From Candidatus Baldrarchaeum yapensis (lineage in GTDB: Archaea; Asgardarchaeota; Baldrarchaeia; Baldrarchaeales; Baldrarchaeaceae): a stretch of 64,000 bases of DNA. The position numbers and the translations under genes are program-made. The notes beneath the pieces are model-generated. The model worked only from the letters and a program-made list of their open reading frames with translations. It had not been told where the DNA came from and did not search any database. Where the stretch lies: assembly GCA_016840465.1 (NCBI GenBank), contig JAEOSH010000002.1, forward strand, positions 1 through 64,000. Reading direction: 5' to 3'. Every line of letters starts with the position of its first letter. The stretch's first letter is position 1. Below are positions 4,990 to 58,036 of this stretch, one piece after another.

Positions 4990-6108
4990 TTATTGATTCA
5001 TTTGCCTTCGGAATTTAAACCATATCCTACACGTACCTTCTTGTGAAACCATGCAAGGACCATAAGGAGACGCGGGTGTACAGACTTTACCGAACAGTTT
5101 GCACTGCGGAGGGTATATTTTTCCTATTAGTACTAGATGACATGAACAACCGGGCAGAATATCACGCGATTGATGTTCTAACCTGATATCGAACTTTTTT
5201 CTCGCGTCAAAGTTTTCATAAGGCTTTCTAAGAGAGAATCCGGACTTTGGAACCCTACCAATTCCTCTCCAATGAGCGCTCACGGGTACGAATACTTCAT
5301 TCATCGTCTCTTGCGCTTTGACGTTTCCCTCATACTTTACACATCTTAAATACTCGTTTTCACACTTTATGTCATTTGTTACTATTTGTTTGAGGATCAT
5401 GAGGACCGCTATAAGGATGTCAGCAGGCTCAAAGCCGGCAATCACTGTTGGCATGTTATAGGCATCTGCAAATATTTCAAACGGCTTTACACCGATTATT
5501 GTGGCTACATGTCCTGGACATATGAAACCATCTATATGTAAGTCGCCAATACCTAGCAACAATTCCATTATCGGCGGTATTAGCCTATGTGAACAGAGTA
5601 TACTGAAGTTCTCGGGTGGGTCATTTAAAATTAAGGATGCAACTCCGGGTGCTGTTGTTTCGAAGCCTACCGAGAAGAATACTACTTCTTTATCCTTATA
5701 CTTCTTAGCAAGCTGGACAGCATCGATAGGACTATACACAATTTTAACATTGGCACCTTCAGCACGTGCTTTCCACAGCGAGCTATATGATGCCGGTACC
5801 CGTGTCATGTCTCCGAACGTTGCTAATATTACATTTTCTTGCTTTGCTAGGAAAATTGCTTCATCGATTTCTTTTGCCGGAACAACACATACAGGACACC
5901 CAGGACCTGGCAACAACTCCACATTTTCGGGAAGAAGATCCCGTATACCATGCTGTGTTATCGATTGTTCATGTGTCGGTGCCGGTCACTGACCGGCAGT
6001 CCCGCACACGTGCATGATTTTTATTTTTCCGTGTACTTCTCCTGACAATATTTTTAATTTCCTTCTAACATTCTTAATGAATTCCTTATCTCTACCGAGA
6101 CCTAGCAA
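4990..6108 (-). CDS. hypD: Hydrogenase maturation protein HypD, interrupted by a 24-nt intron
   Basis: HypD is the iron-sulfur scaffold on which the Fe(CN)2CO unit of [NiFe]-hydrogenases is assembled. Exon 1 is 6108-5999 (TTG start, overlapping the end of mobA) and encodes a family-typical N-terminus ending at MHVCGT. Exon 2 is 5974-4990 and begins within THEQSITQHG. It contains LLPGPGCPVC, SVGFETTAPG, ICPGHVATIIG and the C-terminal cysteines PGCSCHLVL. Joined, the exons give 364 residues, the normal HypD length. Unspliced, the frame meets a UGA inside the insert. Translation from the internal ATG at 5922 would lack the essential CGTHE motif. See the separate intron entry. Confidence 0.9.
5975..5998 (-). 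other. 24-nt BHB micro-intron in hypD
   Basis: The insert splits the invariant CGTHE motif and holds an in-frame UGA. On the minus strand the RNA folds as follows. Outer exon helix UGUG/CAUG; central helix CGGG/ACCG, with three pairs and a G-A mismatch at its inner end; 3-nt bulges ACU and ACA; inner intron helix GCCGGU/ACCGGC closing a 5-nt loop. Cleavage after the second base of each bulge (AC|U, AC|A) joins codons to read Cys-Gly-Thr-His-Glu. This is a slightly relaxed bulge-helix-bulge, the substrate of the archaeal splicing endonuclease. Confidence 0.82.
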
Positions 6109-32443: not shown

Positions 32444-32531
32444 TGGTAGCCCGGCCGGGATTCGAACCCGGGTCCCCAGCTTTCTTCGGGGCTCCAAAGG
32501 CTGGGAGGCTTGGCCGCTACCCCACCGGGCT
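32444..32531 (-). tRNA. tRNA-Gln (anticodon UUG) with a 12-nt intron, CCA encoded
   Basis: On the minus strand the acceptor stem AGCCCGG pairs with CCGGGCU, with discriminator A and encoded CCA. The anticodon stem CCAGC/GCUGG encloses loop CUUUGGA (anticodon UUG) only after a 12-nt insertion at position 37/38 is removed. The T arm is CCCGGGTTCGAATCCCGG. A TATA-like GTTTATTTAG lies about 50 nt upstream. The intron is described separately. Confidence 0.93.
32482..32493 (-). other. 12-nt BHB intron in tRNA-Gln at position 37/38
   Basis: The anticodon stem forms the outer helix. Anticodon-loop bases CUUU pair with intron bases GAAG as the central four-pair helix, and the two 3-nt bulges are GGA and AAA. 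Cuts after the second base of each bulge remove AGCCCCGAAGAA and leave a 7-nt anticodon loop. It lacks an inner helix (hBH form), which is common for very short archaeal tRNA introns. Confidence 0.9.
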
Positions 32532-52974: not shown

Positions 52975-54771
52975 TTATTTCCGAGAACTCCTTTTTATTT
53001 TCATTATCTCGTTGAGTAACTCCAGTTCTTCGGATGATAATTCCTCAGAGAACTTTAATTTTAACGTTCTGATGTGTGGCTCCGGCACGTCGACATAAAT
53101 TATATCTCCTTCTTTTATGTGCCTACCGACTATGGCTTCCCTTATAGATATTGCAACTTCCATACCCGCGGTTGCTTCCCGAAGACTCTGACCTGCCTGT
53201 TGAATTTGCATTATTTGACCTATATATTTTCCACTTGATGTCATAAGGGGATACCTAGGTCGTATTCTTCCGACGAGTACCTTAACCCCCACGATTGCCG
53301 GCTTACTTCTCCTAAACACATAACCCGGCAGTATCATTATTTTTGCCGGCATTATTATCTTTTCTAATGTCAATTTCTTTTCTTCTTCTCGCTTCTTCGT
53401 AACCCAATTATCGTAATCCTCAAGTAGTTTGTAGATTATGTTGCTCCAAAATATTGGAATGTCATATTTTTTAGCTTCCTCTTCGGCGTCCGGCAAAATT
53501 TTTACGTTAAAAGCTAGTATTGCTGCTCGATATGGATCCTTTTCCATGACAACTACCGCTTCCATGACATCACGCTTTGATACATCGCCAATACCTGCAA
53601 GTCTTATTGGAACATCATGTCTCCGTAAGTAATTTACTAGCGCTTCTAGAGATCCCAAGGTATCCGCTTTTAAAACAACACCAACCTTATCTGTCGAAAT
53701 TATGATCTTCTTGACTTCCTTCTCAATCTCGTCAACTACGGATTGTAACTCTGATTCATCCCAGACCGCACGCATTGGAGAGCCAGCAACAGCGCCTTCG
53801 AGATTTGGAGCGACAAGTTTTACTCCTGCGGCTGCCACCACTTCATCTACCGGTGTGAACTTCTCACGAGGATCCCTTATTTCATCTAAAGGCTTTGGTA
53901 AAAGTATAGCACGAAGTTTTGTGACAATAGGTCCCTCTATTCCTCCTATTACGATGATATCATCCTTTCTCAGTACTCCATCGTAGATTATCGCATTCAC
54001 TGTTAAACCGAGTCCGAGTTCTTCCTTTACCTCGAGAATAACTCCTTTTGCCGGCCCTTCCTTAAATTCGAGTTGTTTTTTCATGTAGCGCTGAGTCAGA
54101 CCGGCGAGTACAAGTAAAAGTTCAGGTATCCCCTCCCCCGTTTTTGCACTTGTTGGGACGATGGCAACTGTTTTTGAGAAATCAGTAACTCTATCAAACC
54201 TTTCAGCGCTGAACCCGACGGCACTCAAGGACCCGACTATTTGGTATATTTTTTCGTCTAAGTACCTCCTGACGGCTGGATCTTGCAGTTTTATTGATTC
54301 TGTAAAGTATTGTGTGGGTCCGGGTCTCCACCCGGGGATCCTGTCTATTTTGTTTGCGGCAACTAAAAATGGAACTCGCCTTTCCTTCAAGATGTCTATG
54401 CATTCCCATGTTTGAGCTTGGAATCCCTCCATTATATCAACTACTAGTATTGCGAAGTCTGCAGCGGCTCCGCCCCTAACTCTAAGGTTGTAAAATGCCT
54501 CATGCCCTGGAGTATCTATGACTAGGATTCCTGGGATTGTCAACTTCACTTTATACATTTCCATGAGTTTGCCACAAATTTTCTCAATTACGGGGGATGG
54601 AAAGAAGGATGCACCAATGTGCTGGGTCTAGCATCAGGCCGTGGAAAACGGCCTGATTATGCCCCCAGCCTCTCTTTGTTGGACGGCCGTCCCACGGATT
54701 TTATCAAGCAATGAGGTCTTTCCATGATCTATATGTCCCAAAACAACGCATATGGGCTGCCTTAGACGCAT
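52975..54771 (-). CDS. infB: Translation initiation factor aIF5B, interrupted by a 30-nt intron
   Basis: Ribosome-dependent GTPase for subunit joining. Exon 1 is 54771-54658: ATG after the strong site GAGGTGATC, encoding [23 protein letters not shown] (in parts) up to EAGGI. Exon 2 is 54627-52975 and begins TQHIGASFF. It includes G3 [10 protein letters not shown]4 AANKIDR, and the full C-terminal domains. The joined protein has 588 residues, normal for aIF5B. Unspliced, the insert brings in-frame UGA and UAG codons, and translation from the internal ATG at 54564 would have no P-loop. It lies between ndk and rps6e, the usual archaeal order. The gene is essential in all archaea studied, so the insert must be tolerated or removed. 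Confidence 0.95.
54628..54657 (-). other. 30-nt BHB micro-intron in infB (aIF5B)
   Basis: A textbook hBHBh' structure on the minus strand. Outer exon helix GCUGGG/CCCAGC (6 pairs), central helix GGCA/UGCU (4 pairs, one G-U), bulges UAA and AGA, and inner intron helix UCAGGCCG/CGGCCUGA (8 pairs) with a short loop. Cutting after the second base of each bulge (UA|A and AG|A) joins GGC AUA to ACC CAG and restores Gly-Ile-Thr-Gln. This is the switch-I sequence with the Mg-binding threonine. The insert holds UGA and UAG stops in frame. Confidence 0.92.
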
Positions 54772-57146: not shown

Positions 57147-57773
57147 TTACGTTTGCACAGGCTTTTGAGGTATTATTTTCGTCTCAAATTCCTCTACTGG
57201 GATTGGAAGATCTCCATCGGGTGGTATTGCTCCACGTTCGCGTAGGATTTGTCTCGCAAGTAACCAATAGATGAGAGACAACGCTTTTCTTCCCTTATTA
57301 TTCGTGGGAATCACAAGATCTATGTATGCAGTATTCGCATCCGTGTCGCAGAGGGCAACTATTGGGATTCTGGCATCAACGGCTTCTTGAACTGCTTGCC
57401 TATCTGCTCTCGGATCCGTAATTATTATCACGTCTGCCTCAACGTAATATTTGGAAGACGGGTTTGTTAAAGTCCCCGGAATAAACCTTCCGGGGATGGC
57501 TATTGCCCCGACAACTTCAGCGAACTTTTTAACCGGTCTTTGTCCATACTGCCTTGCAGACACTGCAAGAATCTTTGATGGCTCAAATCTTGATAGGAAT
57601 TTCGCTGCAATACGGATTCTTTCATCGGTTTTTCTGACATCAAGCACATACAGACCGTCTGGACGTGTTCGATATATGTACTGTGCCATATATCCGGTCT
57701 TTATTTTCGTCCCTATGTGGACTCCTGCTGCAAGATATTGATCCAAAGGAACTAACAGAGTATCGCTACTCAT
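57147..57773 (-). CDS. rps2: Ribosomal protein uS2
   Basis: A 208-residue uS2. [37 protein letters not shown] (in parts) and [11 protein letters not shown] are clear archaeal/eukaryotic uS2 features. The start overlaps the rpoN stop by 8 nt, so translation is probably coupled to rpoN. Confidence 0.97.
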
Positions 57774-58036
57774 ATTCCATCTCCTCTTCAGCTTCTTCCT
57801 CCCTGGCAGGCGGGAAACTGAACTTCAATACTTCATCTATCAACTCCACATGGCTCAATAACATTCTTCTACAACAATATCTTTTTAATCCTAAATCATC
57901 AAGGACTTTTTTCGGGTCTTCACCACTTTCAACTCTTTTCTTGAACTCTTCCCATTTATCAGCAATAACCTTACCACATGTAAAGCTTCCCGCCACCGAC
58001 GGAAATTCGTCGGTGGTATCGGACCGGGATTATCAT
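57766..58036 (-). CDS. rpoN: RNA polymerase subunit RpoN (Rpo10), interrupted by a 31-nt intron
   Basis: Small zinc subunit of RNA polymerase. Exon 1 is 58036-58018, encoding MIIPVR plus the first base of a Cys codon. Exon 2 is 57986-57766, starting with the last two bases of that codon and continuing [18 protein letters not shown] to the conserved [16 protein letters not shown]. Joined length is 79 residues, and the N-terminus MIIPVRCFTCGK is then the invariant RpoN start. Without removal, the 31-nt insert shifts the frame and destroys the first zinc ligand. A ribosome-binding GGGTGA lies 8 nt before the ATG at 58036. An acidic C-terminal tail is present. Precedes rps2. Confidence 0.94.
57987..58017 (-). 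other. 31-nt BHB micro-intron in rpoN
   Basis: On the minus strand the central helix UCCG/CGGG (4 pairs, one U-G) is flanked by bulges AUA and AAG. The inner intron helix CCACCGACG/CGUCGGUGG (9 pairs) closes a 6-nt loop. The outer exon helix is weak, with only two pairs, so this is a relaxed HBh' form. Cuts AU|A and AA|G join CGA U to GC UUU and restore Arg-Cys-Phe. The 31-nt length cannot be read in frame. Confidence 0.9.

Follow-up and report, generated by a model that had tools for sequence, protein, structure and literature searches.

We confirmed an insertion of 30 nt in the aIF5B gene (infB) of the window (the whole stretch of 64,000 nucleotides analysed here), and with a probability of about 94% we read 54657..54628 as an archaeal bulge-helix-bulge (BHB) intron in the aIF5B mRNA. 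A first-pass annotation of this DNA had placed an insert with in-frame UGA and UAG codons at 54628-54657, and these coordinates proved exact. On the minus strand, the splice points lie at 54658/54657 within the 5' bulge (UA^A) and at 54628/54627 within the 3' bulge (AG^A). Unspliced, the frame runs into IIRPFSTA*C* at the insert. With the insert excised after the second base of each bulge, GGC AUA is joined to ACC CAG, giving GGITQ, and the protein continues as EAGGI/TQHIGA. Cleavage at these bases had been proposed to restore GGITQHIGA, and it does so with a gap-free family match: the spliced product of 588 aa scores 823.5 bits against NCBIfam aIF-2 over model positions 1-584 of 591. Exon 2 by itself, an uninterrupted open reading frame, scores 712.5 bits from model position 60. 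The locus DNA is single-copy in the host genome, and a search at the protein level shows one infB in this genome among the matches listed.

The predicted minimum free energy structure of the infB region RNA is the full hBHBh' motif itself, in which two 3-nt bulges on opposite strands flank a core of 4 pairs, with an exon helix of 6 pairs on one side and an intron helix of 9 pairs and a 5-nt loop on the other. The earlier description of this fold held for the exon helix, the core and the UAA and AGA bulges; its intron helix of 8 pairs was one short, the ninth being a U-A pair that closes the loop. The fold has an energy of -30.9 kcal/mol (z -4.2), and none of 200 shuffled sequences was equally stable. 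Across 1.87 Mb of the genome on both strands, no strict BHB is more stable than that of infB (-29.5 kcal/mol), and in three dinucleotide-Markov simulations of equal size none reached -25 kcal/mol or below.

Table 1. Interrupted genes of the host genome and their parts; numbers are positions in the window, and a contig is given for introns elsewhere in the genome.
Feature	Position or contig	Strand	Description
infB (aIF5B) gene	54771..52975	minus	interrupted by 30-nt insert
infB exon 1	54658..54771	minus	38 codons; spliced aIF-2 match begins at model position 1
infB intron	54628..54657	minus	30 nt, phase 0; 9-bp intron helix; stops UGA and UAG in frame
infB exon 2	52975..54627	minus	TQHIGA... 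to stop
BHB 5' strand	54657..54669	minus	exon helix GCUGGG, core GGCA, bulge UA^A; direct reading and fold
BHB 3' strand	54621..54633	minus	core UGCU, bulge AG^A, exon helix CCCAGC; direct reading and fold
rpoN exon 1	58018..58036	minus	MIIPVR and first base of next codon
rpoN intron	57987..58017	minus	31 nt, strict BHB, phase 1; RNA polymerase subunit N
rpoN exon 2	57766..57986	minus	spliced product matches full RNA_pol_N / PRK04016 models
hypD exon 1	5999..6108	minus	start codon uncertain; ends ...KIMHVCG and two bases
hypD intron	5975..5998	minus	24 nt, BHB-like, phase 2
hypD exon 2	4990..5974	minus	THEQSITQHGIRDLLPENVE...; TIGR00075, 471.8 bits
porC intron	contig C56		28 nt; restores IPVLNTPMLGAF
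pcm intron	contig C78		32 nt; restores GQTISAPHMVA
UPF0147 intron	contig C86		29 nt
glcD-like oxidase intron	contig C55		30 nt; one core mismatch
AmmeMemoRadiSam radical-SAM enzyme intron	contig C66		29 nt; restores CxxxCxxC motif CNFTCPWC

A comparison of infB DNA between relatives, which the first-pass annotation had proposed, bore the intron out. In G001-G003, three genomes from a different family of the same order with an aIF5B 68-69% identical to that of the host, an insertion of 33 nt lies at the identical infB junction. In alignment with the host (G000), their intron stem differs, with UCUAGCCAGA/UCUGGCUAGA against UCAGGCCGU/ACGGCCUGA, and their core has G-C where the host has G-U. Over the four sequences, 96% of the cells pair; with the partner slid, the figure drops to 18-39%. 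Three pairs of the intron helix have changed on both sides. Taken alone, this covariation among four sequences would be modest evidence. A covariance model of the infB intron, run over 392 archaeal genomes, found a filled site in G000-G003 only, while its matches in 29 other genomes are each exactly 48 nt long, which is the model minus the intron and thus an empty site. These relatives were drawn from the genome search; a locus search of the contig collection gave only unrelated bacterial GTPases. The host genome is a 100-contig assembly, and most of the relatives are drafts too.

A different infB intron was found in four genomes of family f6. It is 29 nt long, shifts the frame and lies at GGCAAA/ACG, where it separates the last two residues, K and T, of the P-loop GHIDHGKT. 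A single core mismatch and a weak exon helix make it a relaxed BHB. Despite variation at flanking synonymous sites, the f6 intron (A3 / L009-L012) is near-identical across the four species, whereas the stems of the pcm and rpoN introns diverge between relatives. Among the matches listed in a protein survey of the 392 genomes, there was no further interrupted infB. The aIF5B tree unites families f1, f2, f6 and f12 in a clade (support 0.93), within which the switch-I intron marks f1 and f2 and the P-loop intron marks f6; the P-loop insertion is independent of the switch-I one. The pcm intron is present in every member of this clade in which pcm was found, and in one f6 genome (G007:C1:803836-808302) the intron-bearing pcm and infB lie close together on the contig.

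We scanned 82% of the host genome (1.87 of 2.27 Mb) for short BHB hairpins whose excision joins open frames, and found seven more introns of 24-32 nt in protein genes (Table 1). Their spliced products were checked against protein family models, and splicing restores a family-wide match in each. In an energy ranking that took introns up to about 60 nt, five of the eight strict BHBs at or below -18 kcal/mol are introns of protein genes, namely infB, the radical-SAM gene, rpoN, UPF0147 and porC. Four of the host introns, those of rpoN, hypD, UPF0147 and the radical-SAM gene, came to light only after a stricter codon-usage filter had been loosened. The intron counts are lower bounds, because longer or weaker introns would escape the scan. 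Two of the eight host introns, hypD and glcD-like, have one core mismatch, and since the motif is imperfect, they rest more on frame repair, as does the f6 infB intron. Many further scan candidates were rejected as gene-boundary or antisense matches, among them L191+8484, which marks the boundary between a FAD-oxidase gene and an Fe-S gene. Also rejected was L049+16074 (G000:C15) in a gene for an AMP-binding enzyme, whose frame seems to be shifted by a 4-nt duplication; there is no BHB here, and an assembly error or recent mutation is the probable cause. A strict 28-nt BHB at L173 minus 1441 (G000:C94) ends at the tRNA T-loop-like gggttcaa and probably marks an unusually placed intron in a tRNA.

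Three of the introns (infB, rpoN and hypD) lie within the 64-kb window. Removal of the 31 nt from rpoN restores MIIPVRCFTCGKV, and the same site is filled in G001-G003 by introns of 41, 42 and 43 nt. All 15 pairs examined form in each of the four genomes, with compensated changes at 7 of the 15 positions. The start given for rpoN in the list of open reading frames is a false internal GTG. Removal of the 24 nt from hypD restores KIMHVCGTHEQSITQHGIR; here the motif has a core with 3 of 4 pairs and a G.A mismatch, a 7-bp intron helix and a 4-bp exon helix.

In pcm, 13 genomes of the phylum and two of another have an intron at one and the same site. An alignment of 12 genomes from five families (f1, f2, f6, f11 and f12) shows pairing in 94.8% of cells, compared with 32-51% when slid. 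All 7 aligned pairs of the intron helix have changed on both sides in some member; a core pair has gone from G-C to A-U in the host genome. In all, 8 pairs have changes on both sides. A pcm covariance model adds G066 (family f16, two copies) as well as G341 and G358 (L235 and L237; family f44, of the other phylum), which have introns of 20 and 23 nt at the same site, and it gave empty-site matches of 42 nt in many other genomes. The site common to two phyla may reflect shared ancestry, transfer or independent gain. Structure is conserved over sequence in infB (four sequences), pcm (twelve) and rpoN (four). In G003, porC has an intron of 33 nt that restores FFGAERRGAP at a site which differs from that of the host, and therefore porC has been hit twice. 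Elsewhere, pcm of G033:C77:3564-4202 and of G042:C44:33712-34356, and porC-like genes in G038:C43, G024:C4 and G031:C197, have a single in-frame UAG or UGA with no obvious insertion; these lone stops may be due to recoding, sequencing error or decay.

The host genome encodes a plausible machinery for excision of these introns. Two proteins have PF02778 and PF01974 domains, on contigs C56 and C53, and by sequence reading the expected catalytic His lies in a region (GPGIDHAPFLVHV) present in the C56 copy and absent from the C53 copy; this two-protein arrangement is that expected of an (alpha-beta)2 heteromeric endonuclease. The ligase RtcB is also encoded. With introns allowed, ARAGORN reported 16 of 40 tRNAs with an intron. 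The tRNA at 32444-32531 of the window (minus strand) was read with anticodon ccc without an intron and tta with one, and probably has an intron or an unusual structure. Yoshinari 2006, cited in PMC12397907, reportedly tied heteromeric endonucleases to archaeal pre-mRNA splicing. Together with the same-site covariation and the empty sites, the endonuclease and ligase genes support the interpretation of the infB insert as a BHB intron.

EndA most likely cuts at the infB intron and its siblings, with RtcB as the ligase. In the aIF5B transcript, intron and flanking exon sequence would fold into hBHBh', the two-subunit tRNA-splicing endonuclease would cut after the second base of each 3-nt bulge, and RtcB would most likely join the exons into an uninterrupted aIF5B message. 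The excised 30-nt intron may itself be closed into a circle by RtcB. Seven or more comparable mini-introns of 24-32 nt in other host mRNAs would be excised by the same machinery. Cleavage, ligation and translation of the spliced mRNA are what we infer.

Short, stable hairpins inserted in coding sequence are also typical of bypass elements, at which ribosomes hop the hairpin and leave the RNA intact; T4 gene 60 and yeast mitochondrial byp are examples. However, matched take-off and landing codons were not found here: the infB triplets are unmatched (ATA/TAG and ATA/CAA), and the other tested genes have no full triplet match save one GGC/GGC in the f6 infB. The insertions also occupy all three codon phases, and bypassing has no use for a strict two-bulge, four-pair geometry in which core and intron helix covary. 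We consider this explanation very unlikely. The frame is preserved by the 30- and 33-nt insertions of G000-G003, as it would be if UGA and UAG were read as amino acids and aIF5B carried an insert of 10 residues in switch I. Such recoding fails on length, since several introns are not divisible by three, those of f6 infB (29 nt) and rpoN (31, 41 and 43 nt) shifting the frame; moreover, the insert would fall in the most conserved GTPase motif, and the stop codons vary among relatives while RNA pairing is what stays conserved. We regard stop-codon recoding as extremely improbable.

Since the source is a 100-contig assembly, an error of assembly or sequencing has also to be weighed, as has decay of infB into a pseudogene. 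Both fail, because three more genomes have an intron of different sequence at the infB site and the essential gene is single-copy, with exon 2 uninterrupted (712.5 bits); the same anatomy recurs in seven other genes. This possibility, too, is exceedingly small. Conserved motifs of essential genes are typical insertion sites of self-splicing group I or II introns and of inteins, of which the insert might be a remnant. Nevertheless, introns of 20-43 nt are far below the size of a ribozyme or an intein, and no Rfam intron family matched in the 64-kb window, where three tRNAs were the only hits at the gathering threshold; ribozyme introns and inteins are thus excluded, their likelihood being vanishingly low.

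Other short insertions have been put forward as introns in archaea. Elements of 12 nt that occur as indels in SIRV1 have reportedly been suggested to behave like introns, and to our knowledge their splicing was never confirmed. Those elements and the ones described here are alike in being very short insertions in archaeal coding sequences, but the former are viral and the latter cellular, 20-43 nt long, and marked by conserved positions and covariation. Peng 2004, on the rudivirus SIRV1, is cited for predicted introns in PMC2738675. In that paper (Yokobori 2009), predictions in Sulfolobus virus and genome papers are mentioned, and no pre-mRNA splicing was confirmed besides that of cbf5. The 2020 study of the Haloferax endonuclease (PMC7714728) states that cbf5 was the one further BHB intron on record, and itself contributes a 5' UTR site. 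That site belongs to HVO_1309 of Haloferax volcanii, whose mRNA is likewise processed by the splicing endonuclease at a BHB but whose coding sequence is uninterrupted. Among papers of 2025-2026 on the topic, we found no added coding-sequence BHB case, in a search that subscription papers and preprints mostly lay outside. A literature search on Asgard archaea with introns and BHB or splicing endonuclease likewise found nothing on such mRNA introns, and an earlier notice elsewhere is possible.

The first-pass annotation had called introns of this type rare, with cbf5 as the classic case. As of 2020, cbf5 alone was accepted (PMC7714728), in keeping with that statement, but the rarity does not extend to the host genome, with at least eight such introns. 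The infB intron would work like that of cbf5 in Desulfurococcales and Sulfolobales (Watanabe 2002; Yokobori 2009, PMC2738675) but is distinct from it. Both are of BHB type, lie inside protein-coding sequence, are linked to a heteromeric tRNA-splicing endonuclease and show lineage-specific gain and loss. The host gene here, however, is aIF5B, not cbf5; other genes are concerned (infB, rpoN, hypD, pcm, porC and others), with many introns per genome instead of one, in another archaeal phylum that is rich in Ras-like GTPases. With archaeal pre-tRNA and pre-rRNA introns, the present ones share the hBHBh' motif, 3-nt bulges, the 4-bp core, the predicted second-base cut, and the EndA and RtcB machinery. 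They differ in that the exon half of the motif is codon-constrained and the host RNA is an mRNA, and splicing must therefore precede or accompany translation.

In conclusion, mRNA splicing of this type looks common in the lineage, with at least eight predicted mini BHB introns in the host genome. The phylum has 227 genomes in the survey set, of up to 7.8 Mb, and Ras-family matches number 12-32 per genome in the seven phylum genomes tested, compared with 2-4 in two outside archaea, counts that would fit Asgardarchaeota. On balance, we favour the view that a deep archaeal clade, probably Asgard, carries actively turning-over mini BHB introns (20-43 nt, at least eight per genome) in the most conserved codons of essential mRNAs, with repeated gain (infB at two positions, porC at two) and perhaps movement between lineages (pcm, two phyla). 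This would be a spliceosome-free mRNA intron system in a group often placed nearest eukaryotes. BHB introns in archaeal coding sequences have so far been treated as a single curiosity. If the introns described here are spliced, gene expression in this lineage would routinely involve mRNA splicing by the tRNA machinery, and many genes in such genomes must stand annotated as broken or missing. The gain and loss of mRNA introns in prokaryotes would also become measurable over hundreds of genomes through exact empty sites. Should the phylum be Asgard, the finding would bear on the kinds of intron present near the origin of eukaryotes.
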